Of a DNA stretch of 39,946 bases, positions 138 to 30,989 are shown in pieces; positions within the stretch are counted from its first letter, which is position 1, and each line of letters opens with the position of its first letter. Location of the stretch: NCBI GenBank assembly GCA_021159185.1, contig JAGGSH010000036.1, positions 1 to 39,946 on the forward strand. The letters are read 5' to 3'. The DNA is from a bacterium (GTDB lineage Bacteria > Patescibacteriota > Minisyncoccia > Moranbacterales > UBA9337). A program made the position numbers and the translations under genes. The notes under the pieces were generated by a model, which made no database searches, was not told the DNA's origin, and worked only from the letters and a program-made list of their open reading frames with translations.

Positions 138-1064
138 ATGATCAATGTCCAAAAAAATGTTCCGTTAGCTCCTTATGCCACTTTTAAAATTGGCGGACCG
201 GCTAAATTTTTTACGGAAGTAAAAAATGAGAAAGAGCTTATAAAGGCTTTAGCATACGCCGAAAAAAATGGTTTAGAGTGTTTTGTCTTAGCCGGCGGGT
301 CAAATGTTTTGATTAGCGATAATGGTTTTAACGGATTAGTAATTAAAATACGCGATACGCGATACGCGATACGCGATACGCGAGTGGAATGCGGGGCGGG
401 AATTCTGCTTTCTGAAATAGTTTCCAAAACAGCGAAAGCCGGGTTGTCAGGACTGGAGTGGGCGGCTGGAATTCCGGGGACAATCGGCGGAGCGGTCAGA
501 GGAAACGCGGGAGCGTTTGGCGGCTGTATGGCGGACGCGGTAGAGAAAGTAAGAGTTGTAGTCCAAGGCAAGCCACAAGCTGTAAACTACAAGCTGCAAG
601 AATGCAAATTCGGATACCGGAGCAGTATTTTTAAAGAAAAACAAAATATTATAATTCTTTCAGTCATATTAAAATTAAAAAAAGGCAATGCTGAAAAAAT
701 TCAGCAAAGAGTTGAAAGTATTATAATTAAAAGAAAAGAAAAACAGCCGCGCTTTCCCAGCGCCGGAAGCTTTTTTAAAAACCCGATAGTTAACGACGAG
801 AAAATTATCAAAAAATTTGAAAGCGACACCGGATTAAAAATGAAAGACAATAAAATTCCGGCCGGATGGCTTATTGAAGAAGCCGGTCTTAAAGGCAAAA
901 AAATTGGCGGCGCGCAAGTGAGCAAGAAACATAGTAATTTTATAATAAACACCGGCGGCGCCACGGCTGAAGATGTAATAATGTTAGCCAGCATCATAAA
1001 ACAGAGAATAAGAAGCGTTTTTAATATTCAATTAATGGAAGAGGCGCAGTTAGTTGGTTTTTAA
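138..1064 (+). CDS. murB: UDP-N-acetylenolpyruvoylglucosamine reductase (MurB)
   Basis: ORF with FAD-binding motifs (YATFKIGGPA, LAGGSNVLI, GIPGTIGGAVRGNAGAFG, ECKFGYRSSIFK, PSAGSFFKNP, AGWLIEEAGLKG). Confidence 0.95.
   Translation: MINVQKNVPLAPYATFKIGGPAKFFTEVKNEKELIKALAYAEKNGLECFVLAGGSNVLISDNGFNGLVIKIRDTRYAIRDTRVECGAGILLSEIVSKTAKAGLSGLEWAAGIPGTIGGAVRGNAGAFGGCMADAVEKVRVVVQGKPQAVNYKLQECKFGYRSSIFKEKQNIIILSVILKLKKGNAEKIQQRVESIIIKRKEKQPRFPSAGSFFKNPIVNDEKIIKKFESDTGLKMKDNKIPAGWLIEEAGLKGKKIGGAQVSKKHSNFIINTGGATAEDVIMLASIIKQRIRSVFNIQLMEEAQLVGF
349..383. repeat. Heptanucleotide tandem repeat TACGCGA x5 inside murB
   Basis: Five exact consecutive TACGCGA units; translated as IRDTRYAIRDTR. Confidence 0.95.
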
Positions 1065-1065
1065 G

Positions 1066-1096
1066 TAAAAAATAGACGCATCCATAGATGCATCTA
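1066..1096. repeat. 31-bp dispersed repeat copy 1 (taaaaaatagacgcatccatagatgcatcta)
   Basis: Matches 7082-7112 with a single mismatch. Confidence 0.9.
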
Positions 1097-1236
1097 GACT
1101 AGTGATAAATACGGCTGGAAAGCCAAGCAGAAATTAACCATCAAAGATAAAGCGGGGGATTGCTGGAGGTGAGAGATTGGAAAAGGAGATAGATTTTTAA
1201 GTAAGATTTTTTTAATGGCGCGCGATGAGATAATAA

Positions 1237-1917
1237 ATGGACATAAAAGATAAAAAGACAATTAAAGATTTGCCGAAAGTAGAAAGGCCAAGAGAGAAAT
1301 TAATGCATTACGGTCCGGAAAAATTGTCAGACGCGGAGCTTCTGGCAATTTTATTGCGGACTGGCGGAAAAGGAATTAATGTCGTAAATCTTTCCAAAAA
1401 GATTTTAAGAAAGTTCAGTAAAATAAAATTGCCGGAAGCAAGATTGAAAGAACTAAAAAACACTTACGGATTGGGCGCGGCCAAATCCTGCGAGATTATC
1501 GCTTGTTTTGAACTGGGCAGGAGAATGCTGCAAAACAAAAAAGCGGTTCTTATTTTATCCCCCAAAGATGTTTGGCGAGAACTAAAGGACATTAGAAATA
1601 ATAAAAAAGAGCATTTTATAATTTTTTATTTGGACGCGCGCAATCAAGAAATTAAAAGAGAAATTATTTCCATTGGTTCGCTTAACGCCAATCTGGTCCA
1701 CCCGCGAGAAGTTTTTGAGCCGGCAGTCAGGCATACGGCCGCCCAAATTATTATTGCCCATAACCATCCATCGGGAGATCCCGAACCGTCGGAAGATGAT
1801 CTGGAAATTACCAAGAGATTGGTTGAAGCCGGAAAAATTTTAGGCATTGAAATCATTGATCATATAATTGTAGCCAAAGGCAGCTTTCTAAGTTTTAAAG
1901 ATAAAAAATTAATTTAG
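1237..1917 (+). CDS. radC: RadC family JAB/MPN-domain protein
   Basis: UPF0758 layout: N-terminal GPEKLSDAELLAILLRTG, JAMM motif AHNHPSGDPEPSEDD, LDARNQEI. Confidence 0.93.
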   Translation: MDIKDKKTIKDLPKVERPREKLMHYGPEKLSDAELLAILLRTGGKGINVVNLSKKILRKFSKIKLPEARLKELKNTYGLGAAKSCEIIACFELGRRMLQNKKAVLILSPKDVWRELKDIRNNKKEHFIIFYLDARNQEIKREIISIGSLNANLVHPREVFEPAVRHTAAQIIIAHNHPSGDPEPSEDDLEITKRLVEAGKILGIEIIDHIIVAKGSFLSFKDKKLI

Positions 1918-1921
1918 CACT

Positions 1922-3760
1922 ATGGGTAAAACGAATTACAAGCCAATGAAAGAAGAAGTTATTTCAGAACCGGAAGAGTATTTAGGGTTTGGCCAAAAGA
2001 AGAAATATTTTGTCTTGGATGGCAAAAAAATAAAATATCTGGCTTCCGGCAAAAAGTATAATTTTTCCGATCCGGAAGAAAAAGTCCGGGCTGAGTATTA
2101 TTTTGATTTGATTGAAAAATATAATTATCCCGCTATGCGAATAGATTTTGAAATTGAAATGCCAAGTCGCACTCCGCAATTTTACGCGGATATTGTAATT
2201 TATGAAGACGATGAAAAGAAAAAACCGTACATCGTTGTTGAATGCAAGAAGGATGGAATTACCGACGCGGAATTTGAGCAGGCCGCTAAGCAAGCGATTG
2301 GAAACGCGCGAGTGCTAAAAGCGCCGTTCGCTATCTGCGTTGCCGGCAATACCCGTCGAGCAATGGAAACGGAAAAGTGGAACGATAAGACTCCGGAAAA
2401 ATCTATTATTACCGATATTCCAATTTCTTACGGCAAGATTGAAGCGTTCAGATATAAAAAAGGCGATCCAAATTGGGATTTAAAAGTTTTAGAAAAGCAG
2501 GAGTTAATTCGCGCGCTTAAGAAATCTCACGATACTTTATGGGCTGGCGGCAAAAGAAACCCGACAGTCGCTTTTGACGAGCTATCCAAAATTATTTTCG
2601 TAAAAATTCGCGATGAAAAGAAGGGCAGAAAAAACGGCGAATATTATGATTTTCAAATTAAAACTCACGAACCAGCCGAAAGTGTTTATAAAAGAATTAA
2701 CAATATTTATGAAGAGGCGAGAGAAAAAGATCCCGAAATTTTTAAAGAAAATTTAAAAGTGGAACCGGAAGAACTTTATACCGTAGTTGAGCATTTACAA
2801 GGGCTTTCATTAAATAAAACCGATCTGGACACTAAGGGCGTGGCGTTTGAGCAGTTTATGGAAGATTTTTTTAAAGGCAAAAACGGACAATACTTTACTC
2901 CCAGAGAAATCGTAAATTTCGCTATCAAAATGATGGACATTAAAAACGATGATTTGGTTTTAGATCCAGCATGCGGTTCAGGCGGTTTTCTTTTGCATAG
3001 TTTGGATAAAATCAGAAATGACGCGAAAGAATATTTTGAAAATGATGAAGCGGAAAAATATCGCTATTGGCACGACTTTGCCCAAAACAATCTTTTTGGT
3101 ATTGAAATCAACGACTCAATCGCTCGGGTGGCCAAAATGAATATGATTATTCATGATGACGGACATACCAATGTTATTGGTTTTGACGCTCTGGAAGATA
3201 TTGATAAGATGAACCGCAAAAATCCTGGTTTTGCTAAAAATCGTTTTGATATTATTGTCACCAATCCTCCTTTTGGCGCTAATGTTAAAGCCAGCGAGCA
3301 TCCATATTTAGAAAAGTTTTTCTTTGGCAAAAATGGCAAGAAGACACGAGCTAATCAAAAAACTGAAATTCTTTTTATTGAACGCTGTGTGGATTTTCTG
3401 AAACCCAGAGTTGGCCAAATGGCTATTGTTTTGCCGGATGGTATTTTGACAAATTCCAGTTTACAATATGTTCGTGATTATTTAATGGAGAAAACACAAA
3501 TTTTAGCAGTGGTCAGTTTGCCACAATTTGCTTTTACTCATTTTGGCGCCGGCGTTAAATCGTCTTTGGTTTTTGTCCGCAAAAAAGCCGATAACGAAAG
3601 ACTCGGTAAACCCTCCAATTCGGCGGGCAGGTATCCAATCTTTATGGCAATCGCTGAACATATTGGCTATGACGCTACTGGGCGCAAGGACCCAAAGAAT
3701 GATTTGAATAAAATTTGCGAAGAATTTAAGAAGTTTAAAAGTAAAAATAAGCTAAATTAA
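1922..3760 (+). CDS. N-6 adenine DNA methylase fused to an N-terminal HSDR_N-type PD-(D/E)XK domain (HsdM-like)
   Basis: SAM motif I VLDPACGSGGFLL, catalytic NPPFG (IIVTNPPFGANVK); N-terminal ADIVIYEDD...YIVVECKK resembles the HsdR N-terminal nuclease domain. Confidence 0.9.
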   Translation: MGKTNYKPMKEEVISEPEEYLGFGQKKKYFVLDGKKIKYLASGKKYNFSDPEEKVRAEYYFDLIEKYNYPAMRIDFEIEMPSRTPQFYADIVIYEDDEKKKPYIVVECKKDGITDAEFEQAAKQAIGNARVLKAPFAICVAGNTRRAMETEKWNDKTPEKSIITDIPISYGKIEAFRYKKGDPNWDLKVLEKQELIRALKKSHDTLWAGGKRNPTVAFDELSKIIFVKIRDEKKGRKNGEYYDFQIKTHEPAESVYKRINNIYEEAREKDPEIFKENLKVEPEELYTVVEHLQGLSLNKTDLDTKGVAFEQFMEDFFKGKNGQYFTPREIVNFAIKMMDIKNDDLVLDPACGSGGFLLHSLDKIRNDAKEYFENDEAEKYRYWHDFAQNNLFGIEINDSIARVAKMNMIIHDDGHTNVIGFDALEDIDKMNRKNPGFAKNRFDIIVTNPPFGANVKASEHPYLEKFFFGKNGKKTRANQKTEILFIERCVDFLKPRVGQMAIVLPDGILTNSSLQYVRDYLMEKTQILAVVSLPQFAFTHFGAGVKSSLVFVRKKADNERLGKPSNSAGRYPIFMAIAEHIGYDATGRKDPKNDLNKICEEFKKFKSKNKLN

Positions 3761-3765
3761 AAAAT

Positions 3766-4851
3766 ATGAACCCATATACACCCCAACAACTTCCATTAAA
3801 AAAATTAAACTGGGAAAGTTTCGTCCATTTGATTGGCAAAGCCAATGCAGAAGTTGCCAGATTTGATGGCCTTTTGCAGAGCATGCCAAATCCTGCAGTG
3901 CTTCTTTCGCCCTTATCAACACAAGAAGCTGTTTTGTCATCTAAAATTGAAGGAACAAGAGCTACTTTGCAGGAAGTCTTGGAATTTGAAGCTGATCCCA
4001 AAAAGGAAACTGAAAAATATCACGACATTCAGGAAATTTTAAACTATAGAAAAGCAATGAGTTATGCAATTAAAGGATTAGATGATATATCTCTTACTAC
4101 CCGACTTATAAGAGGCATTCATAATATTTTGTTGGATAGTGTTAGGGGAAAAGATAAATATAGGGGTGATTTCAGAAGAATCCAAGTTCATATTGGAAAA
4201 TCCAACAAGATTGAAGAAGCCATATATGTGCCGCCGCTTTGCAAAGAAGTTCCTGGTCTTATGTCTAATTTGGAAAAATATTTCCATTTTGATGAAAAAG
4301 ATTATTTAGTTCAGCTGGCGATCGTGCATGCTCAATTTGAAATAATTCATCCCTTTGAAGACGGGAATGGCCGTGTGGGTAGAATACTTATGCCGATATT
4401 TTTGTATTTCAAAAAAGTGCTTTCAAGTCCAATGTTTTACTTAAGTGCTTACTTTGAATCTCATCGTGAAGAATACTATCAAAAACTTCTTGGTATCTCA
4501 AAAGATAACGATTGGGAGAGTTGGATTGAATATTTTTTGAATGCTGTAACAATTCAATCAAAAGAAAACATAAGCAAAGCTAAAGCCATTCATCAGTTAT
4601 ATGACATTAAAAAAGAAAAAATTGTAGAGCTTACGCATTCACAATTTGCGATTAAAGCTTTGGATTTTCTCTTTTGCAATCCAATATTTACCAGTTCACA
4701 ATTTGTAAAAGATTCTAAAATACCTAAAGCAAGTGCTTCAAGAATTTTAAACTCGCTTGATAGTGGCGGGGTTATAAAAGTAATTCAAAAGGGTATTGGA
4801 AGCAGACCTACAACCTATATATTCACAAAGTTGTTAAATATAGTCGGTTAA
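3766..4851 (+). CDS. Fic family protein (Fic_N + Fic core + C-terminal winged helix)
   Basis: Fic motif HPFEDGNGRVGRIL; N-terminal (S/T)xxxE(G/N) inhibitory motif SSKIEG; 5 nt after the hsdM-like stop. Confidence 0.93.
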   Translation: MNPYTPQQLPLKKLNWESFVHLIGKANAEVARFDGLLQSMPNPAVLLSPLSTQEAVLSSKIEGTRATLQEVLEFEADPKKETEKYHDIQEILNYRKAMSYAIKGLDDISLTTRLIRGIHNILLDSVRGKDKYRGDFRRIQVHIGKSNKIEEAIYVPPLCKEVPGLMSNLEKYFHFDEKDYLVQLAIVHAQFEIIHPFEDGNGRVGRILMPIFLYFKKVLSSPMFYLSAYFESHREEYYQKLLGISKDNDWESWIEYFLNAVTIQSKENISKAKAIHQLYDIKKEKIVELTHSQFAIKALDFLFCNPIFTSSQFVKDSKIPKASASRILNSLDSGGVIKVIQKGIGSRPTTYIFTKLLNIVG

Positions 4852-4876
4852 TTTAGCGTCTCACAAAAATAATAAT

Positions 4877-4904
4877 ATGATACACAAATATTTTAGTGTA
4901 TCAT
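4877..4904. repeat. Inverted repeat ATGATACAC-N10-GTGTATCAT between fic and the membrane-protein gene
   Basis: 9-bp perfect arms nested in outer TCTCAC (4859-4864)/GTGAGA (4907-4912) arms. Confidence 0.7.
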
Positions 4905-4946
4905 GGGTGAGATACAAAATATTTAGCGCTCCATAAATAGCGAAAC

Positions 4947-5459
4947 ATGTCGCACAACAACTTCCATTTGCCATTTGCAGGTGGTATGAAAATGGACAAA
5001 AATATGAAAAATGAAGATTTAATAAAAATAAAACAAGACGCAATAGTAATTCAAGAAAACGAGTTGAAAGACACTATCCAAAGTATAGAAAATGAGAACA
5101 CAAAATCCTCATTTGCCTTGGGGCTTGCTGGCATTCTAATTGGATTCATTTTTGGCAATATAGATGATTTATTATTCTGGCAAAAAATTATTTTTTCTTT
5201 ATTTGTCATTATTCCAATCGGTTTTGCTTTTTATAATATATCATCAAAAAAGTTAGCTACTCATACAAAAGTTGATGAAATATTTGTAAATAATTCACCC
5301 AACAACTGGGGAAAATATTTGAATTATAAGCACTTAAGATTAATAGATTGTTATTCTGAAGCTAAGACACTTCTTTATAGGAAAACTACCCTGACCAAAA
5401 TATCATACTTTTTTCTTATTTTAGATTTACTGTTTTTATTAATAATTAATCTCATATGA
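4947..5459 (+). CDS. Hypothetical small membrane protein with about three predicted TM helices (true start may be an internal ATG)
   Basis: Hydrophobic segments FALGLAGILIGFIFG, IIFSLFVIIPIGFAFY, ISYFFLILDLLFLLIINLI; co-directional within the RM operon. Confidence 0.7.
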   Translation: MSHNNFHLPFAGGMKMDKNMKNEDLIKIKQDAIVIQENELKDTIQSIENENTKSSFALGLAGILIGFIFGNIDDLLFWQKIIFSLFVIIPIGFAFYNISSKKLATHTKVDEIFVNNSPNNWGKYLNYKHLRLIDCYSEAKTLLYRKTTLTKISYFFLILDLLFLLIINLI

Positions 5460-5635
5460 TAGACGACAACAAAACACAAAAACATATTGGCGAGCAACGA
5501 CCATTACGATCATCTTCGGGGGATGAAGGTGATAATGCTCAGGATAATAACTCAGACAACGATAATAATCCATTAAAACCAGAGGAAGCACAAAAAGGTG
5601 CAAATTCAAATAATAAAAATTATGACTCAAACTAA
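5456..5635 (+). CDS. Small hydrophilic N/D-rich protein (59 aa), not in the ORF track
   Basis: ATG overlaps the upstream stop (ATGA) and the TAA overlaps the likely hsdS start (ATG 5622); reads MIDDNKTQKHIGEQRPLRSSSGDEGDNAQDNNSDNDNNPLKPEEAQKGANSNNKNYDSN. Confidence 0.5.
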   Translation: MIDDNKTQKHIGEQRPLRSSSGDEGDNAQDNNSDNDNNPLKPEEAQKGANSNNKNYDSN

Positions 5636-7067
5636 AACTCAACAATTAAGTTCCGCCTCCGTTAAAACTTCGGCGGACAGGCCGCAGATTTTTACTATTT
5701 GGAGTAGCGAAATAGAGGGAAGAATTGACCCGTCATTTTATCGGCCGGAATTTAAAATACTGGAAAAGGCATTTGTAGATGGCAAATACCAAGTAAAAAC
5801 ACTTAAAGATATAGCAGAAAAAATTTCCAGTGGCGCTACCCCCTTATCTGGCGGAGATGCCTATACCAATAAAGAAGAGGGCATTCCTTTTATTCGTAGT
5901 GGAGATATTAATGCAGATAAAAATATCAATTTTGATGATTTGCTTTATATCAAAGAATATATTCATCAAAAGAAACTTAAATCATCTCAGCTTAAAAAAG
6001 GAGATGTGCTTATAGCTATTGTAGGCGCTACAATTGGTCAAGTTTCTTTATATGATTATGACAAAGAAGCAAATATAAATCAGGCTATTGCCATGGTTAG
6101 AGTAAATAAGGATATTAATCCCGAATATGTTAAAGAATACTTACTTTCAACAGTCGGACAAAATCAATTAAACAAAATTAAAAGACCTGTTGCGAGGGCA
6201 AACATAAATCTTGAAGAAGTTGGTAGTATTAAGATTCCACTCCCACCCCTCTCAATCCAAAACAAAATCGTGGATATAATGCGGAAGGCGTATAAGGAGA
6301 AGAAACGGAAAGAGGACAAGGCAAAAAAATTATTAGATTCTATTGATGATTTTGTTTTGGGTGAGCTGGAAATAAAAATGCCGGAGATTAAACGAGAAAT
6401 GGTTTTTGAAGTGATGAGTGATAAGGTTGAAAGTAATCGGATAGATGCTGAATATTGGCAACCGTTTTTAGGGAAGATTGAACAGATTATAAGGCGGAGT
6501 AAATATAAAACTCAAAAGTTAAAAAACTTTATTACAAAAATCCATTATGGCGCTTCTACCTCAAACGCTTATGTAGATAGCGGAATTCCCTTACTTCGTA
6601 TTTTAAACTTAAAGCCAAACTGTATTGATGTATCAGATGTAGTTTATTTGCCGGAAAATTTTCGGAAAGAATTAGGCAACGCTTTTGTCAGAGCCGGCGA
6701 TCTACTTATATCCCGAAGCGGCACGGTCGGTATAGTGTCAGTCGTGCCAAAAGAGGCAGACGACTTTGCCTTTGGCTCGTTTATGATTAAATTTTGTTTA
6801 GACAATAAAATAAATAAAGAATTTGTTTCCGTCTGGTTAAATAATAAACTAAACAAGCTATTAATTGAGCGAGAAAAAATTGGCGCCATTCAAAGAAATA
6901 TTACGATTAACACAATTGAAAATTTTAAAATCCCGACTCCGCCTTTGGCAGTCCAAAATAAAATTGCCAAAAAAGTAAATTACAAAGAATCTAGAATTTT
7001 ACAAAAGGAAGCTAGTAAGATTTTAGAAAACGCCAAAGAAAAAGCGGAAAAAATGATTTTAGGATAA
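5622..7067 (+). CDS. hsdS: Type I restriction-modification specificity subunit (HsdS), two TRDs
   Basis: Two TRD-type repeats (GIPFIRSGDI..KKGDVLIAIVGATIGQV; GIPLLRILNL..RAGDLLISRSGTVGIV) each followed by IPLPPLxxQNKI. Confidence 0.92.
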   Translation: MTQTKTQQLSSASVKTSADRPQIFTIWSSEIEGRIDPSFYRPEFKILEKAFVDGKYQVKTLKDIAEKISSGATPLSGGDAYTNKEEGIPFIRSGDINADKNINFDDLLYIKEYIHQKKLKSSQLKKGDVLIAIVGATIGQVSLYDYDKEANINQAIAMVRVNKDINPEYVKEYLLSTVGQNQLNKIKRPVARANINLEEVGSIKIPLPPLSIQNKIVDIMRKAYKEKKRKEDKAKKLLDSIDDFVLGELEIKMPEIKREMVFEVMSDKVESNRIDAEYWQPFLGKIEQIIRRSKYKTQKLKNFITKIHYGASTSNAYVDSGIPLLRILNLKPNCIDVSDVVYLPENFRKELGNAFVRAGDLLISRSGTVGIVSVVPKEADDFAFGSFMIKFCLDNKINKEFVSVWLNNKLNKLLIEREKIGAIQRNITINTIENFKIPTPPLAVQNKIAKKVNYKESRILQKEASKILENAKEKAEKMILG

Positions 7068-7081
7068 GAAAAGCGCGGAAA

Positions 7082-7112
7082 TAAAAAATAGACGCATCCA
7101 TAGATACATCTA
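7082..7112. repeat. 31-bp dispersed repeat copy 2 (taaaaaatagacgcatccatagatacatcta)
   Basis: 30/31 identity to 1066-1096, same orientation. Confidence 0.9.
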
Positions 7113-7142
7113 AAATAATAAACTAATTCATAAATAAAAAAT

Positions 7143-7511
7143 ATGGAAATGAAAAAATCAAATCAGACGCGATTATTATTAAAGGGGCTGAAAATAGACA
7201 GTCGCGCTAAAGACTACATTGAAAAAAGATTGCAGGCGGTCAGGAAAATGCTGGACGATATTTTGCGCGTGGAAATTGAAATTGATCTGGATAAAAAAGG
7301 AAAATTCAGAGTGGAAGTGATGATTAAAACTCCGCGCAAGCTTTATCGGGCGGAAGAAACCACAGAAAGCGTGGAAGGTTCTATTGATTTAGTCGCAGAG
7401 CAATTAAAAGTTCAAATTAGGCGAAGCAAAGATAAAATCGTGGCATTGAAAAAAAGAGGAGGAAGGTCAATTAAGAAAAAAGCAACTATTGATGAAGACG
7501 CAAGGTTTTAA
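7143..7511 (+). CDS. hpf: Ribosome hibernation promoting factor (HPF/RaiA family)
   Basis: Short HPF fold pattern: LKGLKIDSRAKDYIEKRL..., FRVEVMIKTPRKLYRAEE. Confidence 0.85.
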   Translation: MEMKKSNQTRLLLKGLKIDSRAKDYIEKRLQAVRKMLDDILRVEIEIDLDKKGKFRVEVMIKTPRKLYRAEETTESVEGSIDLVAEQLKVQIRRSKDKIVALKKRGGRSIKKKATIDEDARF

Positions 7512-7598
7512 ATTGCTTACTCTCTGAAATCTAACGCGGCACCGCTATTAATTAATTGATTAAATGTTTTATAAGGTTTTCTCTTTTTGCAATCATGC

Positions 7599-8099
7599 TT
7601 ACTCCAGCAACTCCTCCGTAATTCTATTTTGGCAAGTTTCTCTGATATTTTTGTCTTTTATTTGGCGGCAGACATTAAAGTTTTTTTTGGCTATGGCCAG
7701 ATCTTTTAAGCAATAATCTTTTTCTAAGCCGGTTAAATTTTCACAGCTATTGCCGTTTTCTTTTTCAGGCGGAGTTAGTCCGCAAACTTGGCGGCAATAT
7801 CGCAAGTCGCTTTCTTCGGTAAATTCAACGCAGTTATTTTCGCAGTCTTCGTTATCAACTTCTAGAAACTCGCTTTCTCCGTATTCACCGCTTTCTTTTT
7901 CACTTTCTTCCTCTTCCTCTTCATCTTCTTTTTGGATGTTTTTCATTTCTTTTATTTCATCTAAGTCAATTTCATAGGAATCGCTTTTTTCCGCTTCTTC
8001 ACTTTGATTAAAATAACGTTCTTTGATTATAGGATACGCCCAATAAGCCAGCGCCGCCGCTAGAATTATGTAAATTATTAAAAATATTTTGCTTTTCAT
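7599..8099 (-). CDS. Hypothetical membrane-anchored acidic protein with a Cys-containing C-terminal region
   Basis: N-terminal TM helix, EDEEEEEESEKESGEYGE run, several Cys residues. Confidence 0.65.
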   Translation of the reverse strand: MKSKIFLIIYIILAAALAYWAYPIIKERYFNQSEEAEKSDSYEIDLDEIKEMKNIQKEDEEEEEESEKESGEYGESEFLEVDNEDCENNCVEFTEESDLRYCRQVCGLTPPEKENGNSCENLTGLEKDYCLKDLAIAKKNFNVCRQIKDKNIRETCQNRITEELLE

Positions 8100-8188
8100 A
8101 ACTTTATATCATAATACAGCATACTGGAATACTGTATAATGATAAATAAAAAGTGTAAATATGTAAAATGCGCAAAGAGAGGGGATAA

Positions 8189-9718
8189 TCAATAAACTTT
8201 TAAAATATCAATTCCCGTGTAGTAGTATTTCAAAATTTTGTCCCAGCTCCAATTATGCTCGCTGGCGAGATTTAAAGCGCCGTGGGCGGAAAGCCCTACC
8301 ATATGGTTTCCGGCGGCGACTAGTTCGGTGGTGCTTAAGGAAGCGTGTTTTCCGTAAGGATCGCTTACGGATTGGCACCATGGGTAATTATCCGATCCCC
8401 AACGCTCTTTAAAACTTCTGGTTCGCCCGTCCGTCCATGAGCTGTAAGGCGTGATGGCAATGCGGCCGCCGTGCATAACTATTTTTCCTTGAGTATCCAT
8501 AGCGGCGTTTTTTATTCTGGAATGTCCCAATTCCCAGTCATAGCCGTAATAGAGTTGGTTTCCGGGAGTAGCGTTGACCTTAAACTCTTCGCTGGCGTAT
8601 TTGGTGCTGAATTTAATTTTCCAGTAGCCGTAAGTTCTAAAGGAAACAGCCATAACGCGGTTGTAGTCCATATCGCCCGTGCCGGTAATTTCTCCCATTC
8701 CCCAAACGTAATATTCCAGAGGAAGCGTGTTAATCACCCAGATTTTTTTGGAATTGTCGCTATAGCGCAATTTTATTTTTCCCCTGTATTGGTCAAAAGG
8801 GGAAGAAGGGCGGTAAACGTCAAATATCATAGTGGCATTATCTCCGTCCGCCGCTTCAAAGTAAACTATTTCATTAGAAAGCGTTTCCGCTACTGAACCG
8901 TATATTTTCAGCCTGCCGCCGCCGTCATAGGAAACTCTGGTGATAGTTTCAGCTGAAACCGCGGCAATTATCGCCCCGTCGCTATTTTTTATATTGTAAT
9001 TTTTATTAGCTTTGATTTTGAAGGGGGATTCACGGAGATCATCGCGGGAATAATTCCATAATCCCACGGTGATTTCCGGACCTGAAATTCCGCCTTCCAG
9101 ATCGGCTTCACCCAAATCCGTTGTCGGATTATTCAGATAAGCGCGATAGCGGTTATAGCCGTTTTTATATTTACTCTTGTTATACTTTTTATATTTAGCG
9201 TATTTACTCTTGTTATACTTTTTATATTTAGCGTATTTTTTATATTTTTTGTATTTATGCTTATAACCCCGATATTTTTTGTAATAATCCCAGTATTGGG
9301 CGTATTGGGGATACACGGCCGGCTGTTTTTTGTATAATTTATATTTGTAATAATAATCTTTGTAAACAAGCTTTTCCTCCTTATTTTTAAATTTGTATTT
9401 TTCTTTATACTCTTTATACTGCCGGTAAAGTTTCCGTTTTTTATATTTTCTGTATTTTATGTATTTCTGGTACAAATCCAAATCAGCTTCCAATTCTTCA
9501 TTGCTGCTTCCGGAAACTTCATCTTGGGCATGAACAACGAACAACGAACAGTGAACAATAAACAATAAACAATGGACAGCGAACAATAATAAAAAGGCAA
9601 TGATGATATATCTCGTTGTTTTAAATATTTTTGCCATTCCGAACGCAGTGAAGAATCCCGCGCGAATATCGTCAATTTTTTTAAAGCCTTTGTATGTTGA
9701 TTTGTTTTTTTGTTTCAT
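8189..9718 (-). CDS. SpoIID/LytB-domain secreted protein with a Tyr/Lys-rich low-complexity region
   Basis: C-terminal SpoIID-like segment LPLEYYVWGMGEITGTGDMDYNRVMAVSFRTYGYWK ... SLSTTELVAAGNHMVGLSAHGA. Confidence 0.8.
   Translation of the reverse strand: MKQKNKSTYKGFKKIDDIRAGFFTAFGMAKIFKTTRYIIIAFLLLFAVHCLLFIVHCSLFVVHAQDEVSGSSNEELEADLDLYQKYIKYRKYKKRKLYRQYKEYKEKYKFKNKEEKLVYKDYYYKYKLYKKQPAVYPQYAQYWDYYKKYRGYKHKYKKYKKYAKYKKYNKSKYAKYKKYNKSKYKNGYNRYRAYLNNPTTDLGEADLEGGISGPEITVGLWNYSRDDLRESPFKIKANKNYNIKNSDGAIIAAVSAETITRVSYDGGGRLKIYGSVAETLSNEIVYFEAADGDNATMIFDVYRPSSPFDQYRGKIKLRYSDNSKKIWVINTLPLEYYVWGMGEITGTGDMDYNRVMAVSFRTYGYWKIKFSTKYASEEFKVNATPGNQLYYGYDWELGHSRIKNAAMDTQGKIVMHGGRIAITPYSSWTDGRTRSFKERWGSDNYPWCQSVSDPYGKHASLSTTELVAAGNHMVGLSAHGALNLASEHNWSWDKILKYYYTGIDILKVY
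9170..9235. repeat. 33-bp exact tandem duplication in the SpoIID-like gene (11-aa repeat KYAKYKKYNKS)
   Basis: tttactcttgttatactttttatatttagcgta repeated twice. Confidence 0.95.
9532..9587. repeat. Degenerate heptamer array (gaacaac/gaacaat-type, 8 units) inside the signal-peptide coding region
   Basis: gaacaac gaacaac gaacagt gaacaat aaacaat aaacaat ggacagc gaacaat. Confidence 0.85.
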
Positions 9719-9875
9719 TGAAGCGGCTCTAATATTCTGATTACACTTTAATGGAGCTTAATATTGCCAACACCTTGATAATACCTTTTTTATTGTTTAT
9801 TGACAAATAAGCGGAGATTTTTCCATTACATTCTCAATTATTGCCAAACGGTTAAAATTTAGCTAATATGGGTTT

Positions 9876-10814
9876 ATGGAAGGAGAAAAATATTTATCCA
9901 TAGTAGTTCCTCTTTTTAACGAAGAGGGGAATGTAGAAGAGCTTCATCGGAGAATTATTTCAGCTTGCCAAAAAATAGGCGGCGGTTTTGAAATTATTTT
10001 TGTAAACGACGGTTCAACTGATGGAACGGTGAAAGAATGCAAAGGTCTGACGCCATTAAAACTTATTGAATTCAGAAAAAATTTCGGGCAGACGGCCGCG
10101 CTTGACGCGGGCTTTAAAGAAGCCAAAGGGAAAATTATTATTACCATGGACGGGGATTTACAGAACGATCCGGCTGATATCTCTGTTTTACTAAAAGAAA
10201 TGAAAAAGGGCTATGATATTGTTTCCGGATGGCGCTGGCAAAGAAAAGACTCATTGAGCAAAAGAATATTTTCCCGAGGGGCTGACCGGCTTAGGAAAAT
10301 TTTTATGCAAGATAATATTCATGATAGTGGCTGTAGTCTTAAGGCGTATAAAAAAGAATGTTTTCACGATTTGGATCTTTTCGGTGAAATGCACCGTTTT
10401 ATTCCGGCACTTTTAGAAATGCAGGGATATAAAGTGGGGGAAGTGAAAGTTTCCCACTATCCCAGAATTAAAGGCGTCAGCAAATACAACTGGAAGCGCG
10501 CCATCAAAGGACTGGTGGATATGATGGCCGTTTGGTTTTGGAGGAAATACGCTAATCGCCCGTTGCATCTTTTCGGCGCGGCCGGCATCGCGTTTTCTTT
10601 TCTGGGAACCGCTATTCTTATTTGGATGGCTGTCGCCAGAATTTTTTTCAGCCAGCCCCTTCAGGGAAAAATCTGGCCGGTGATAGGAATATTTTTATTT
10701 TTGGTGGGTATCCAGCTTTTTGTTTCCGGCCTTCTAGCGGATATGGCGGTTAAAAATTATTACAAAGCCAGGAATTCAACCAATTATTCCATTAAAAAAA
10801 TAGTTGAAAGATAA
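9876..10814 (+). CDS. Glycosyltransferase family 2 with C-terminal TM helices (DPM1/ArnC-like)
   Basis: IVVPLFNEEGNVEEL, FVNDGSTDGT, TMDGDLQNDP; two C-terminal TM helices. Confidence 0.9.
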   Translation: MEGEKYLSIVVPLFNEEGNVEELHRRIISACQKIGGGFEIIFVNDGSTDGTVKECKGLTPLKLIEFRKNFGQTAALDAGFKEAKGKIIITMDGDLQNDPADISVLLKEMKKGYDIVSGWRWQRKDSLSKRIFSRGADRLRKIFMQDNIHDSGCSLKAYKKECFHDLDLFGEMHRFIPALLEMQGYKVGEVKVSHYPRIKGVSKYNWKRAIKGLVDMMAVWFWRKYANRPLHLFGAAGIAFSFLGTAILIWMAVARIFFSQPLQGKIWPVIGIFLFLVGIQLFVSGLLADMAVKNYYKARNSTNYSIKKIVER

Positions 10815-10924
10815 TTTCCTTGGATTACAAAACTTTTTTTGTCATTCCCGTGAAACTTGTTCTCAGCTCTGATCGAGGAACGGGAATTCAGGGTGAAATC
10901 ACTAGCTTTGTATGGTTATTCCGG

Positions 10925-10944
10925 ATTCCCGCCTGCGCGGGAAT
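10925..10944. repeat. dRS3-like palindrome ATTCCC-N8-GGGAAT
   Basis: ATTCCCGCCTGCGCGGGAAT. Confidence 0.8.
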
Positions 10945-10997
10945 GACATGTAAAAATGGTCAGTAAACGGGAATGACATGTAAAAATGGTCAGTAAA
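10938..10997. repeat. 30-bp exact tandem duplication
   Basis: cgggaatgacatgtaaaaatggtcagtaaa x2. Confidence 0.95.
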
Positions 10998-11016
10998 ATA
11001 GATAGTCTTACTTTTT

Positions 11017-12600
11017 ATGCGTTTTAGCAAAAAGAAAATTTTAATTATCCTGGTGGCTATAGTATTGCTGGGAACATTTCTTCGTTTCTATAAACTGGGG
11101 GAAGTTTCTTTTTCCGCTGATGAATTTTTGGGCGTGAATGTCGCTTACGGATATCTTCAAACGGGGGAGTGGAAAAGATGGGATTTTAATTTAGGGAAAT
11201 TGGCGGATGACAAGCCATATTTTAAAACCGTATTTGATTTTGATATTTGGGACGGAGGAGAAAAATCTTATACGCGCGCCTGGGCGTATAATTGGCAAAT
11301 TGTCCAAGCCTTGAAATTTCTGCCAGCCGATGAAGAATCAACTTTTCGCGCGATAAGCGCTTTGTGGGGAATAATTACGATTTTAATTATTTACTGGACA
11401 GCCGCGGCGTTTACCGGAAATAAAATCATCGGGCTGATAAGCGCTTTTTTATTTGCCATAAGCATTGACGGAATCACTTTTGACAGAAAAGCGCGTATGT
11501 ATGCGATGTTTTTGCCGGTGTTTTTATTATTTTCCCATTTTGTTTATCAACTTTTTGAAAGCCGAAAATATTTGGGCAGTGAATTGGTCAAAAAGATAAA
11601 GCTTAAGGCAGGATTTAACATTGTTTATGTAATTCCGGCAATTACGCTGGGCTTATTGAGCGCTCATTTACATCTATTGGCAGTTAATATTATTCCCGCG
11701 CTTTTAGTTTATTTCTTGGTCTTGGCGTTTATGGAAGCCAAAAACAGGAAAGTTTTTTTAAATCACTATGCCGTTTATGTTTTAACGGCGGCCGCGTTCT
11801 CGGCGGCATTGTTTATTTTCTGCCCGAACATTTTAAGTTTGCTTAAATCATTTCTGACACCCAACGATCATTTTTCCTATATCGGGAAAGTGTTAAGCGA
11901 TTACGCTAGCGGTATTTTAGCTTTAGCTTTAATAATATTAGGCACGGCTTATTTATGGAACAGAGAGAGAAAAAAATGCGTTTTTGTCAGTTCTTTATTT
12001 TGGACAACTCTTTTAATGGCTATCTTTTTTTGGAATCGCAACGCGGGAGAGCAATATATTTTTTTTATAAAACCGTTTCAGATAATTTTACTGTCATCCG
12101 GAATTTATTTTACGGCTAAATTTATCGGAAAAAACTTTAGGCAATACGGCAGGAAATTTTATTGGGTATCTTTGGCGGTTTTGATTTTACTGCTGCCCGA
12201 TTACGTTTATTTTTTTCAAGAAAATAATGCTTACCATCAAAATTCCAATTCGGAACATCCGAATTATAAAAAAGTATTTGGCTATTTCTTGAAAAATAAA
12301 AAAGAGGGAGACATATTAATTACCAGAAATTTTCGCAATTATTATTTCGCGGGGGCTAACGCGAAAGTTTTCAGTATTGGAGGGGAAAGGGCAGGATTGG
12401 AAGAAAAAAAATTAACATTAAAAAGGCTAAAAAAAATTATGAGAGAAAACTCCCGCGGCTGGATAATATTTTCCGATAATGACAAAAGTTTTATTTCTAA
12501 AGATGCCAGGGAATATATCATTAAAAAAACAGAACGCGTTAGCAACTCAAAAGTGCGGGGACCGGTGAGCGTATATTACTGGCGTGATAAGCGTGAATAG
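11017..12600 (+). CDS. GT39/ArnT-like membrane glycosyltransferase
   Basis: Multi-TM; N-terminal LGTFLRFYKLGEVSFSADEF resembles the PMT_2 N-terminus with acidic residue after TM1. Confidence 0.75.
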   Translation: MRFSKKKILIILVAIVLLGTFLRFYKLGEVSFSADEFLGVNVAYGYLQTGEWKRWDFNLGKLADDKPYFKTVFDFDIWDGGEKSYTRAWAYNWQIVQALKFLPADEESTFRAISALWGIITILIIYWTAAAFTGNKIIGLISAFLFAISIDGITFDRKARMYAMFLPVFLLFSHFVYQLFESRKYLGSELVKKIKLKAGFNIVYVIPAITLGLLSAHLHLLAVNIIPALLVYFLVLAFMEAKNRKVFLNHYAVYVLTAAAFSAALFIFCPNILSLLKSFLTPNDHFSYIGKVLSDYASGILALALIILGTAYLWNRERKKCVFVSSLFWTTLLMAIFFWNRNAGEQYIFFIKPFQIILLSSGIYFTAKFIGKNFRQYGRKFYWVSLAVLILLLPDYVYFFQENNAYHQNSNSEHPNYKKVFGYFLKNKKEGDILITRNFRNYYFAGANAKVFSIGGERAGLEEKKLTLKRLKKIMRENSRGWIIFSDNDKSFISKDAREYIIKKTERVSNSKVRGPVSVYYWRDKRE

Positions 12601-12621
12601 CACTGATAAACTTTACGGTTT

Positions 12622-14358
12622 ATGAAACCAAACTTCATCAAAAATAAATATCTTTGGATTTTTCTGGCGGTTTTCGCGCTGGGAATATTTTTGCGAGCTT
12701 ATAATTTCACTTCCTGGCTTCATTTTGAGTTAGATCAAGCCAGAGACGCTAATTTAATCAGCGAGGCGGTTGAAGGCGGGGCAGGGGAACTTCCTTTGCT
12801 TGGTCCGCGGGCGGCCGGTTCATTCTTAAGGCTGGGTCCCGCATTTTACTATATTGAATATATTTTTGCCAAAATTTTCGGTGATACTCCCCAAGGATCA
12901 GCGCTGGCTGTTTTATTTTTTTCTATTTTATCCATTCCGCTTTTTTATATTTTTATCGCCAGATATTTTAGCAAAAAGAAGCTTTCCTTGGGTTTAACTT
13001 TGCTTTTTTCAGTTTCATTATTTATGGTAACTTATTCCCGCTTTGCGTGGAATCCCAATTTAATTCCGTTTTTCACTTTAGCGGTTTCGTATTTTTTGTT
13101 GAGGGCGGTTGACAAAAAGGAAAAGAGAAAAGGCTGGCATTTATTAGCTTCCGCGGTTTTTCTTGGAATTTTAATCCAATTTCATTTTTTGGCGCTGATT
13201 ATTACGCCCTTGGCAATCGCAATATTTTTAATTATTAAAAGGCCTAAAATAAAATTTAAATTCTGGCTGGCGTCCATTTTAGCAATTATTATTTTAAATA
13301 TCCCAATGATTGTTAATGAAATTAAAACAGGAGGAGATAACGCTAAACAATTTATGGAAGTGGTTGCTAAAAAATCAACCAAGGAAAAACATACTCTAAC
13401 TGAAAAAGCGCTTGAGAATTATCTGGAGCATTCGCTGAATTATTGGACTATTATCTCCGGCAGCCAAAGAGGCGAGCTTTTTAGAGCGGAGTCCGTGAAT
13501 GGAAGCAATATAAAATTTGACATTAAGTGCAACCAGTCTTGCCGCGATAATCTTCCTCAAGGAATGTTGGCTTTTTTGATTTTTACCGCCGGATTGTTGT
13601 CGCTGGCGATTAAATTGGCAAAAGAAAGAAATATTGCCAAGAAAGATTTTTTAACGCTTAATGCGATTTATTTCGCTGTTGCTTTCATTATTTTCACGCC
13701 GTTGGCGTTTAAGTTGTCGCCCAGATTTTTTTTAGTGACTATAGCTATCCCTTTTGTATTTCTAGGATTACTGCTGGAAAGATTTTCATATTTAGCCAGA
13801 GATAGGGGGAAAATAGCCTTGGCTATTATCGCGCTCTTGGTAATTTCAAATTTATTTTTTACTTATAAATTTTTTGAAGAATTGCGATTAGCGCCAAATA
13901 AAAATATAGAAATAGGGCGGGACAAAATTTTAAAGCAAAAAACCAGAATTACTCTTGAACAGCAAAACGCAATCACTGATTATTTGGAAAAAATTTATCA
14001 GAGAAATAAATATCCGATATTTTATCATGGACAAAGCGAGTTTCATCGCGCTTTCGCTTACCTTTTAGATAAAAGGAAAATTCCAAGAGATGGAATCAGC
14101 AAGGGTAAAATTTGCCGGCAGGGAAACTATTTTCTAATTGTTCGCGCGCAATCTAATTCTGAAAATTATTCAAGTTATATGAATTATTTTGATGTCTTGG
14201 AAAAAAAATCTTTCGGAACACTTATTATTTTGCGATTAAGACCGAAAGAGAATGCGATTACTTGCGAGAAGTCCAATCAAGAAGAATTTAGAAATTATAA
14301 GAATGAAAGCGGGGCGGCAACGAAAAGATATAAGTGGAATGAAATATTTGAAAAATAA
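12622..14358 (+). CDS. GT39/PMT_2-like membrane glycosyltransferase
   Basis: Multi-TM; ALGIFLRAYNFTSWLHFELDQARDANL. Confidence 0.75.
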   Translation: MKPNFIKNKYLWIFLAVFALGIFLRAYNFTSWLHFELDQARDANLISEAVEGGAGELPLLGPRAAGSFLRLGPAFYYIEYIFAKIFGDTPQGSALAVLFFSILSIPLFYIFIARYFSKKKLSLGLTLLFSVSLFMVTYSRFAWNPNLIPFFTLAVSYFLLRAVDKKEKRKGWHLLASAVFLGILIQFHFLALIITPLAIAIFLIIKRPKIKFKFWLASILAIIILNIPMIVNEIKTGGDNAKQFMEVVAKKSTKEKHTLTEKALENYLEHSLNYWTIISGSQRGELFRAESVNGSNIKFDIKCNQSCRDNLPQGMLAFLIFTAGLLSLAIKLAKERNIAKKDFLTLNAIYFAVAFIIFTPLAFKLSPRFFLVTIAIPFVFLGLLLERFSYLARDRGKIALAIIALLVISNLFFTYKFFEELRLAPNKNIEIGRDKILKQKTRITLEQQNAITDYLEKIYQRNKYPIFYHGQSEFHRAFAYLLDKRKIPRDGISKGKICRQGNYFLIVRAQSNSENYSSYMNYFDVLEKKSFGTLIILRLRPKENAITCEKSNQEEFRNYKNESGAATKRYKWNEIFEK

Positions 14359-14363
14359 ATTTA

Positions 14364-15527
14364 ATGCGCGTTTTGTTTTTTAATTACGAATATCCTCCAT
14401 TGGGAGGCGGGGCGGGAAACGCTACCGCTTATATTTTGCGTGAATTTTCTAAAATTCAAAATCTGAAAGTTGATTTGATAACATCTTCTACCGGCAAAGA
14501 ATACTGTTTAGAAAAAATAGGAAATAATATCAATATTCACCGACTGCCTATTGGGAAAAATAACGAAAATTTTCATTTCCAGTCTCAAAAAGAGCTTTTG
14601 ATTTACGCGTGGCGAGCCTATTTTTTCGCGCGAAAGCTTGCTAAAGAAAATAACTATAATTTAACTCATTCATTTTTTGCAGTTCCTTGCGGTCCACTTT
14701 CCCTTTTCTTAAAATACAGAAAAAAGATTCCATATATCATTTCTCTTCGCGGTTCCGATGTCCCGGGCTACAGCGAAAGATTTATATTGGTTTATAAAAT
14801 ATTGACACCTTTCATTAGGCATATTTGGAAAAAGGCATCAGCTGTAATAGCTAACAGTCTTGATTTCAAAAAATTAGCCCTAAAAACAGATCACGATTGT
14901 CAGATTAGCGTGATTACTAACGGAGTTGATTCCGGGGAATTTTCGCCTAAGGTCTTTTCTGAAAATGATAGGGAAAGAGTCGGAGATTTTAAGATTATTT
15001 GCGGATCCAGAATAACGCCACGAAAAGGATTTCAATCTATGATTCAGGCAATTAAAATTTTTAAAGAGAAAGGATTTTGCGTTAAGTTGGAAATAATCGG
15101 CGAAGGAAATGAGAAAGAGGATTTGGAAAAATTAGTAATAAAGCTAGGATTAAAAAGTGAAGTAGAATTTTTGGGAATTATTAAACATAGCGATTTGCTG
15201 AAATATTATCAAAACGCCAATGTGTATGTTTCCACTTCTCTTAATGAGGGAATGAGCAATACAATGCTGGAAGCATTATCCGCGGGGCTTCCCGTTATAG
15301 CCACTCAAACGGGCGGGACGGACGAGATGGTTAAAGATGGAATTAACGGGTTTGTTATAAAAACAAACGATCCTGCTGATTTAGTCGCTAAAATTGAAAA
15401 AATCAGGCAAGACTTTAAGTTAGAAAAGAAAATGTCGTTTGAAAGCCGCCGCTTGGCAAAAAAAATGAGCTGGAATAACATTGCTCGCGAGTATTATGCT
15501 TTATATAACAAAGTAGCCGATGAATAA
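14364..15527 (+). CDS. Glycosyltransferase family 4
   Basis: FNYEYPPLGGGAG, ITNGVDSGEFSP, GSRITPRKGF, STSLNEGMSNTMLEALSAGLPVIAT. Confidence 0.92.
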   Translation: MRVLFFNYEYPPLGGGAGNATAYILREFSKIQNLKVDLITSSTGKEYCLEKIGNNINIHRLPIGKNNENFHFQSQKELLIYAWRAYFFARKLAKENNYNLTHSFFAVPCGPLSLFLKYRKKIPYIISLRGSDVPGYSERFILVYKILTPFIRHIWKKASAVIANSLDFKKLALKTDHDCQISVITNGVDSGEFSPKVFSENDRERVGDFKIICGSRITPRKGFQSMIQAIKIFKEKGFCVKLEIIGEGNEKEDLEKLVIKLGLKSEVEFLGIIKHSDLLKYYQNANVYVSTSLNEGMSNTMLEALSAGLPVIATQTGGTDEMVKDGINGFVIKTNDPADLVAKIEKIRQDFKLEKKMSFESRRLAKKMSWNNIAREYYALYNKVADE

Positions 15528-15529
15528 TA

Positions 15530-16456
15530 ATGTTCAATAAAAAACTGATAAAATTTTTTATAAAATTAATAATCACACTGCTTTTTCTGTGGTGGATAAT
15601 TTTCAAAATTGATTGGCAGGAAGTTTGGATTTATCTGCAACGGGTTAGTTTTTTGCAGATCGGAGCTTATGTGGCGTTTTATTTTTTGGGAATGCTGGTA
15701 TCTTCGTATAAATGGAAACTTTTAGCGTCTGCCAATCATATTGTTAAAGTGCCATTGGAAAAATTTTTTAAGTATTATTTCGCGGCAACATTTATTAACA
15801 ATTTCATGCCTTCATTTGTCGGAGGGGACGCTTTCAAGGCTTATCGGATTGGAAAATTTGAAAAAAAATATAAAGAAGCTGTTTCAAGCGTAATTATGGA
15901 CAGACTAACCGGACTTTGGGGAGCTATGATTTTGGCTATTGTTTTTGCCATCTTAAATTTAAAAATAATAATGCAACATCAAATTTTATCAATCATTATT
16001 ATTAGTATAATAGTGTTGTTGGCGATGTCATTTTTTGCGTTCAAAAATCCAAAAGTTTTTAATATTATACCAATAAAAATAATTCAATCTTTTTTTCAAA
16101 AGGCCGCTAAGGAAGTCAATGGATACGGTGAAAACGGCAATGTAATCCGCAGAGCCGTTCTGTTTTCATTCCTATTCAATTTCATCGGTTTAGCCGGAGC
16201 AAATTATATTTTATTCCTATCTATGGATATTCAAGTGAATATTTTGAATTATTTGTCTGTTATATTTTTGATTAGCATTGTTTCTTCAATTCCCGTAACA
16301 ATAAATAATATAGGAGTTAAGGAATGGGCGTATATTACTTTTTTTGGATTTTTTGGAATAGCTTCTTCCGCCGTATTGGCGGTGGCAATTTTAAGCCGCA
16401 TACTGCAGATGCTTCTTAGCTTATTCTCCTGGCCGATTTATTTGAGAAATAAATAA
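15530..16456 (+). CDS. Lysylphosphatidylglycerol synthase TM region / UPF0104 family membrane protein
   Basis: Multi-TM; FINNFMPSFVGGDAFKAYRIGK, SVIMDRLTGLWG, SIPVTINNIGVKEWAYITFF. Confidence 0.85.
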   Translation: MFNKKLIKFFIKLIITLLFLWWIIFKIDWQEVWIYLQRVSFLQIGAYVAFYFLGMLVSSYKWKLLASANHIVKVPLEKFFKYYFAATFINNFMPSFVGGDAFKAYRIGKFEKKYKEAVSSVIMDRLTGLWGAMILAIVFAILNLKIIMQHQILSIIIISIIVLLAMSFFAFKNPKVFNIIPIKIIQSFFQKAAKEVNGYGENGNVIRRAVLFSFLFNFIGLAGANYILFLSMDIQVNILNYLSVIFLISIVSSIPVTINNIGVKEWAYITFFGFFGIASSAVLAVAILSRILQMLLSLFSWPIYLRNK

Positions 16457-16481
16457 TATTATCTCAAAATCACAAATTATA

Positions 16482-21967: not shown

Positions 21968-22641
21968 AGATTTTTTATTTCATCAAAAATTTCTTTTTTA
22001 CTTCTATTGCCGTTGATAATTTTTGCTTGCGGGAAATTTTCAAAATACTGGTCGTATAATTTTTTCTTGTCTTTAAGATATTCCAACCCTTGGTCGGGAA
22101 CGCGATCGCGGTTCATTATATTTTGGGGAGAAGTTTGGAGATAAATGGATGTAAAATTTACAATTTTCAATTTACAATTTTCAATCAATTTACAATTTAC
22201 AATTTTCAAATTCTTACTTTCTAAATAAGTTATGTTTATGATTGTGTCGTAAAAGAAGCGGTCGGATAAAATATGGTCGCATCCTTGTTTTTCTAATTTT
22301 TTTATTAGTCTCTTAAATCGCCAGATGTCTATAAACAGGGCGATCTTGCGAAGCTGGATTTGCAGCCAGTTGGCGCGGGTGACGGATTTAGAACCTATAT
22401 CATTCCCGTCCGCCAATTCGGCGGATAAATTCCGGCGGGAATCTAGATTCCGGATATTTTTTCTTTCACTGTGTTTCAGAAAAAATTCCGGAATGACATT
22501 AACAATGTTGCCGACAGAAAAGTCCACCGCGTGGAAATAAAAAACTCGCTTTCCCCGCGATTCTAAATATTTTTTTAGCAGTTTAATTTGGGTTGATTTT
22601 CCGGAACCATCCAGCCCCGATATTGTAATCACTTTTAGCAT
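21946..22641 (-). CDS. Thymidylate kinase-like P-loop kinase
   Basis: ISGLDGSGKSTQIKLLKKYLESRGKRV; ILSDRFFYDTIIN; overlaps the flippase start. Confidence 0.85.
   Translation of the reverse strand: MLKVITISGLDGSGKSTQIKLLKKYLESRGKRVFYFHAVDFSVGNIVNVIPEFFLKHSERKNIRNLDSRRNLSAELADGNDIGSKSVTRANWLQIQLRKIALFIDIWRFKRLIKKLEKQGCDHILSDRFFYDTIINITYLESKNLKIVNCKLIENCKLKIVNFTSIYLQTSPQNIMNRDRVPDQGLEYLKDKKKLYDQYFENFPQAKIINGNRSKKEIFDEIKNLCQGNIS
22154..22198. repeat. Heptamer-based repeat; 45-nt exact copy of 27756-27800
   Basis: aaatttacaattttcaatttacaattttcaatcaatttacaattt at both sites. Confidence 0.95.
22400..22496. repeat. Composite palindromic dispersed element inside the tmk-like CDS
   Basis: TCATTCC...GGAATGA outer arms, internal TCCGCC-AATTC-GGCGGA hairpin, shared words with 1-55 and 37690-37890. 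Confidence 0.8.
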
Positions 22642-30866: not shown

Positions 30867-30915
30867 AATTCCTAATTCCTAATTCCTAATTCCTAATTCC
30901 TAATTCCTAATTCCT
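30867..30915. repeat. Heptamer array aattcct x7
   Basis: Seven exact consecutive units, intergenic. Confidence 0.97.
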
Positions 30916-30989
30916 AATAAAATGCCAAATGCCAAAAAATTAGTCATTGGATATTTTATCATTAAGAATTGATTAGAAATTAGGAATTG

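Follow-up and report, generated by a model that had tools for sequence, protein, structure and literature searches.

What kind of restriction-modification (RM) system carries a nuclease fused to its methylase and a separate specificity (S) subunit, with no hsdR beside them, and why do three further genes lie between its two parts? These questions are raised by a locus in the window, that is, the whole 39,946-nucleotide stretch of patescibacterial DNA analysed here. Positions 1922 to 7067 of the window contain five ORFs, all on the plus strand and all at the positions given by a preliminary description of the sequence. That description had read the row as a methylase, a Fic protein, a membrane protein, a tiny ORF, and an S subunit, placed between radC and hpf with no hsdR among them; the five ORFs and the absence of hsdR between radC and hpf are both confirmed (Table 1).

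Layout of the locus

Spacing within the row is tight. Only 4 nt separate radC from the RM gene and 5 nt separate the RM gene from fic; the gene for the membrane (TM) protein and the tiny ORF share an ATGA overlap, and the tiny ORF and the S gene overlap by 14 nt. The exception is the 134-nt gap between fic and the TM gene, which contains a strong hairpin. The ORFs stand beyond chance because of their Pfam E-values and, in the case of the tiny ORF, because it is conserved in the nearest related locus, L018. Translation of S probably starts at ATG 5622 rather than at GTG 5598, because the N-terminal sequence MTQTKTQQ is common to L018, L021, and (as MTPTKTQQ) L019. For the TM protein, ATG 4986 is the probable start codon, since the similarity to L018 sets in slightly 5' of it. 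A promoter scan gave a signal no better than chance.

Table 1. Features of the RM locus and its borders in the window
Feature	Position	Strand	Basis or remark
Left copy of 39-nt direct repeat	1063-1101	+	90% identity to right copy; palindromic core
radC	1237-1917	+	5' of RM gene; part of inserted block
RM fusion, 612 aa	1922-3760	+	Pfam, BsaXI profile match, catalytic residues, Foldseek
Nuclease domain of RM, residues 51-155	2072-2386	+	Pfam and AF2 core
Fic, SoFic type, class II	3766-4851	+	Pfam Fic_N and Fic, motifs, PADLOC
Hairpin between fic and TM genes	4858-4913	+	Fold -17.3 kcal/mol, z -5.3
Small membrane protein, 157 aa, 3 predicted TM helices	4986 (or 4947)-5459	+	Hydropathy
Tiny acidic ORF, 59 aa	5456-5635	+	Conserved in L018
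S subunit, two TRDs	5622-7067	+	Methylase_S x2
Right copy of 39-nt direct repeat	7079-7117	+	Just 5' of hpf
hpf	7143-7511	+	3' of S

The RM fusion protein

The RM protein joins an N-terminal PD-(D/E)xK nuclease to a gamma-class N6-adenine methyltransferase (MTase). Pfam places HSDR_N_2 at residues 51 to 155 (E = 3e-15) and N6_Mtase at residues 303 to 569 (E = 1.8e-42), and the MTase motifs DPACGSGGF and NPPF are present. The nuclease residues are E53, E77, D90, E107, K109, and Q124; the stretch ADIVI...VVECKK, which had been proposed to hold the PD-(D/E)XK candidates, indeed supplies D90, E107, and K109.

Multiple comparisons connect this protein to the restriction enzyme BsaXI. With the single RM sequence as query, the best match in the PDB is RM.BsaXI over residues 164 to 559, the N-terminal piece being sub-threshold, and a profile built from 24 family members matches BsaXI over 5 to 759, nuclease included, with an E-value of 1.5e-88. 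Cleavage by BsaXI is abolished by the substitutions E73A, D90A, E105A, and K107A (PMC11997821). Residue counting in the pairwise PDB alignment equates these four positions with E77, D90, E107, and K109 of the window RM. Among the 36 family members that have the nuclease domain, D90 is kept in every one, E107 and K109 in 34 each, and E77 in 31; E53 and Q124 are kept in 31 and 32, respectively. An AF2 model of the RM protein (whole-model mean pLDDT 52) was used for the N-terminal core only, where residues 51 to 150 (pLDDT about 62-85) are predicted to form an alpha-beta-beta-beta-alpha-beta core. In a Foldseek search with the model, the top three PDB matches are all BsaXI. Judged from its sequence, the RM enzyme is probably functional.

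Assignment of the system

Features of Type IIB enzymes are present at the locus: a single chain carries both the PD-(D/E)xK nuclease and the gamma-class adenine MTase, and a separate S subunit carries two TRDs, as for a bipartite target. No ATP-dependent translocase is encoded in the locus, where there is no ResIII match, and a cognate HsdR with nuclease and helicase motor, the mark of Type I systems, was not found. Against a Type IIB assignment, the HSDR_N_2 family is named after Type I R subunits, PADLOC assigns the RM protein as a Type I methylase, the best NCBIfam matches are MADS proteins (at scores well under the cut-offs), the knob and paddle of BsaXI are missing, and AF2 models the protein poorly overall. 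The BcgI-like (Type IIB) reading is nevertheless well supported by the sequence, because stand-alone RM and S pairs occur on plasmids and prophages. The preference for a BcgI-type over a classical Type I system had been voiced in the preliminary description, and it is borne out by the homology to BsaXI, the intact catalytic residues, and the finding that the one hsdR of the genome is partnered elsewhere. Thus, the window system is likely to be a self-sufficient BcgI/BsaXI-type RM enzyme that was acquired horizontally.

By analogy with these enzymes, we infer that one S chain joins a pair of RM chains in an (RM)2S complex, that the complex methylates DNA, and that it cleaves DNA without translocating along it. 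S would bind the bipartite target through its two TRDs. RM would methylate adenines on both strands, and the N-terminal PD-(D/E)xK domains would cut unmethylated invading DNA at a fixed distance, on either side of the target as is typical of Type IIB enzymes, with no involvement of an ATP-driven HsdR motor.

Searches of the host genome (0.94 Mb in 42 contigs; 96% complete) used families and proteins as queries. The check for an hsdR elsewhere did return one, on contig 7, which has an M-S fusion of its own as partner. In the contig-7 row, an 838-aa hsdR comes first, then a Schlafen/AlbA_2-like gene, then the M-S fusion (794 aa), and last a reverse transcriptase of the UG13b type; the M-S fusion is only 27% identical to the window M over 317 aa. 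Counted over the whole genome, N6_Mtase and S each occur at two loci, namely, this Type I-like row and the window pair. The reverse transcriptase (10196-11587 of L017, on contig 7) lies directly 3' of the Type I-like row and matches its PADLOC defence model with an E-value of 7e-139. The window genes might be a classical Type I M and S that borrow the contig-7 hsdR, the N-terminal domain of M being an accessory, and Type I M and S cores can in principle bind R in trans. However, that hsdR stands in one row with its own M-S fusion, the window RM has its own intact nuclease, and homologous pairs on plasmids and prophages have no hsdR in view, all of which makes borrowing improbable. A cognate hsdR elsewhere in the genome, combined with degraded nuclease residues, had been named beforehand as evidence against a BcgI-type enzyme; this combination is absent, because the contig-7 hsdR has its own M and S and the window nuclease is intact.

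The RM protein might instead be an orphan methyltransferase, its nuclease domain vestigial and its role epigenetic or anti-restriction. Degraded nucleases do occur among the relatives, in both tandem copies of locus L035 and, in part, in L038. But the catalytic residues are all intact in the window protein and in nearly all relatives (25-90% identity), and RM is under strong purifying selection, with dN/dS of about 0.06/1.58 relative to L018; an orphan role is thus very improbable. The L035 row (7589-17407) consists of a tandem pair of RM-like genes, with the nuclease motif degraded in both, then S, and then a 1380-aa protein, and it is possibly MADS-related.

That the window pair is a reduced MADS (MAD2 plus MAD5), with the interposed genes standing in for other mad genes, is very improbable. 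MAD2 and MAD5 are the best NCBIfam matches, but their scores of 328.8 and 143.3 bits are far below the curated cut-offs of 720 and 400. Pfam, NCBIfam, and PADLOC scans of the locus proteins detected no further mad gene, and in PADLOC several methylase models of Types I and II outscore mad2 on RM.

Insertion between murB and hpf

In nine relatives that have both genes on one fragment, murB adjoins hpf with a gap of about 29-249 nt, and none of radC, RM, and S is found at the junction in any of the nine; direct adjacency of murB and hpf is thus the arrangement of most relatives. In the window, a 6-kb block from radC to S lies between murB and hpf and is bounded by a 39-nt direct repeat. The gene radC is also found 5' of M in L018, L020, L037, L099, and L175, and the other genomes searched from the same genus and family gave no match to RM. 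The 24-nt core of the repeat, whose chance expectation in the window is 0, is palindromic, is terminator-like on the minus strand, and has a handful of genomic copies. From the sequence, the simplest account is that the block arrived by transfer into, or by recombination at, the flanking repeat. A target-site duplication is not claimed for the repeat, given that copies of the element are scattered through the genome. A palindromic element like TAGAGGCATCTATAGATGCCTCTA, two copies of which border the inserted block, is found at C1:35690, C8:39940, C10:15791, C10:34496, and C11:3610 of the same genome, and the same-genus genome G380 has a related repeat array 5' of hpf, near a contig end.

Other features were seen nearby. 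Tandem arrays of 7-bp units are numerous in the window (348-383, 22155-22209, 26835-26866, 27234-27265, 27757-27815, 30867-30918, and others), and an array of five ATACGCG units sits inside the murB reading frame. A 7-bp unit is not divisible by three, so slippage frameshifts could arise. On the minus strand, positions 8189 to 9718 encode a 509-aa protein that is SpoIID-like by eye, with a great abundance of Lys/Tyr repeats in its N-terminal half. At L117 (4248-6174), radC is followed directly by fic, without RM, as another case of a radC-linked defence-like gene.

Relatives and specificity turnover

The nearest database relatives of RM come mostly from patescibacterial MAGs (for example, Zambryskibacteria, Parcubacteria, Falkowbacteria, and Moraniibacteriota). 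Homologues at about 28-36% identity form two-gene RM and S cassettes with mostly intact nuclease residues. Such cassettes are plasmid-borne in Klebsiella, Tessaracoccus, Skermanella, Flammeovirga, and Trichormus and lie in a prophage in one mycobacterial case, and no hsdR is annotated near the pairs of Klebsiella, Skermanella, Flammeovirga, the mycobacterial prophage, and Trichormus. In Collinsella and Picosynechococcus, RM and S are fused into one protein. These arrangements fit a self-sufficient system.

The window S contains two Methylase_S repeats (Pfam, 9e-31). Working RM systems are expected to show TRD exchange, and exchange is seen here: S halves are about 26 to 86% identical across loci whose RM proteins are 78-91% identical, and a TRD has changed position, the N-terminal half of the L022 S being 59% identical to the C-terminal half of the window S (M, 79%). 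In more distant patescibacterial loci (L033, L101, L103, L104, and L106), proteins of about 200 aa with an N terminus that is LexA-like by eye lie 5' of M, which suggests SOS-type or controller-protein regulation there.

The genes between RM and S

The Fic protein (P0002) matches Pfam Fic_N (6e-28) and Fic (2e-19). It has the active-site motif HPFEDGNGRVGR and the inhibitory motif SSKIEG, in agreement with the SoFic pattern of HPFx(D/E)GNGRxxR plus an N-terminal inhibitory (S/T)xxxE(G/N). The PADLOC SoFic model matches with an E-value of 2e-115 and SoFic entries of the PDB with E about 1e-35; the NCBIfam SoFic score is 182 bits, below the cut-off of 550.

The N-terminal half of the TM protein has a weak match to PycTM (PADLOC E = 2.5e-4, and 4e-4 in L018). 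Since no cyclase domain is found by Pfam among the locus genes, the protein is not classed as Pycsar. Its AF2 model (pLDDT 48) was discarded. Protein P0003 has no relatives in IMG/VR and marginal matches only in 380 patescibacterial genomes.

Comparison with L018 separates these genes from one another. The two loci are 91% identical in RM, about 88-89% in the TM protein, and 85% in S. The DNA sequences cease to be similar at the 3' end of RM (3753) and align again from 4964, which lies 22 nt 5' of the TM start; the exchanged segment, 3754 to 4963, holds fic in the window and an SLFN_AlbA_2 gene in L018. The hairpin, which lies inside this segment, is without a T tract, and its sequence is not conserved in L018. 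The TM gene and the tiny ORF are both under purifying selection relative to L018 (dN 0.04-0.05, dS 0.51-0.58), and the tiny ORF (about 0.05/0.51) keeps its frame across a 3-nt indel. We considered whether the tiny ORF could be an antitoxin to Fic, as AS1 is in the SoFic system, and rejected this, because L018 lacks Fic yet retains the tiny ORF beside the TM gene. Since the TM gene and the tiny ORF persist together without Fic, a link of the tiny ORF to the TM protein or to translation of S is more likely.

The RM-S interval in Patescibacteria

The preliminary description had taken Fic and the membrane protein as parts of a composite defence module. In this form the idea finds partial support: Fic is not conserved, and the TM protein and the tiny ORF recur together in one relative (L018) only. 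A conserved order M-fic-TM-S is likewise rejected, the Fic slot of L018 being filled by the unrelated SLFN_AlbA_2 gene. Other patescibacterial loci have, in this interval, NYN and TM genes (L020, L106), DUF3800 and TM genes (L021), an NYN gene (L033), an IS200-like transposase and a DUF5677-like gene (L019), an AAA ATPase (L037), an LPD3-domain protein (L103), two small proteins, one of them DUF4760 (L104), or a 183-aa gene and a one-TM gene (L184).

Among loci with RM and a separate S, cargo is present in 11 of 19 patescibacterial loci versus none of 8 plasmid or phage loci (Fisher P = 0.008, in a small sample uncorrected for phylogeny and replicon type). Locus L024, labelled TA06, has an RM with 80% identity and is therefore grouped with the patescibacterial loci. 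A TM gene adjoins S in about 7 of the 11 (P = 0.008 versus an assumed background of 25%, or 0.02 if the window and L018 are counted once). Of 20 other patescibacterial Fic loci, at least 3 (L113, L114, and L123) have a SoFic-type gene within or close to a Type I RM operon. A search of mostly open-access literature found nothing on genes between hsdM and hsdS. In a weaker form, then, the idea is supported by the sequences: in Patescibacteria, defence-like cargo repeatedly occupies the space between RM and S.

The cargo genes might also be chance insertions in a permissive spot, functionally unlinked to RM. Cargo is unrelated between loci, an IS200-like transposase is present in L019, and 8 of the 19 loci have no cargo at all. 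However, the main cargo genes share the strand of the operon and frequently overlap their neighbours or are only a short gap away from them, the same kinds recur (NYN, DUF3800, Fic/Schlafen, small TM), and there is purifying selection on the TM gene and tiny ORF; on balance, we come down slightly against chance insertion.

As for function, analogy with known systems makes a second, growth-arresting layer of defence, acting through AMPylation by Fic and through the membrane protein, the likeliest, if speculative, role of the cargo. In the EcoprrI/PrrC system, the RM complex holds PrrC, and inhibition of RM frees it (PMC3874165, PMC12707154). Whether the cargo guards RM as PrrC guards EcoprrI is, by this analogy, a tentative and rather doubtful proposal. 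More ambitious, and unlikely, is the idea that the patescibacterial RM-S space is a dedicated, exchangeable slot whose two-gene module is silenced by RM and freed when a phage blocks RM; the module would often be a soluble enzyme (Fic, Schlafen/AlbA_2, NYN, DUF3800) followed by a small membrane protein.

These findings suggest that complete BcgI/BsaXI-like restriction enzymes, some of them on plasmids and prophages, are numerous among proteins now labelled 'N-6 DNA methylase' or 'Type I M'. The RM-S interval offers a site in which to search for new abortive-infection effectors of ultra-small episymbionts, and the window locus allows a direct test of whether the PrrC principle of guarding the RM is general.

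Comparison with known systems

The system best compared with the window pair is RM.BsaXI with S.BsaXI (Type IIB; PDB 8w0p, 8w2p, 8w2q). The two have in common the order nuclease, helical connector, gamma MTase, a separate S with two TRDs, and four catalytic residues that align; BcgI-like RM chains have also been modelled as nuclease-connector-MTase (PMC11997821). In contrast, the knob and paddle of BsaXI, the latter of which contributes to its cleavage (PMC11997821), have no counterpart in the window RM (612 versus 916 aa), and only the window system has genes inserted between RM and S. BcgI, the archetype of Type IIB, compared here by its published layout, is likewise composed of two subunits, 2R~M + S1~S2 (PMC3874165). 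MADS also pairs an MTase that has the same N-terminal region with an S protein, but its other mad genes are absent from the window locus.

As to the cargo, SoFic, which is antiphage via abortive infection (PMC12249575), and the window Fic share the Fic_N plus Fic architecture and the active-site and inhibitory motifs. Unlike in SoFic, no AS1-like small antitoxin gene is recognised directly 3' of the window fic. EcoprrI/PrrC and the window locus are alike in having an additional toxin-like gene within an RM operon. However, EcoprrI is a Type IC system and PrrC an anticodon nuclease, whereas the window cargo consists of Fic and a TM protein, whose link to RM is one of position only.
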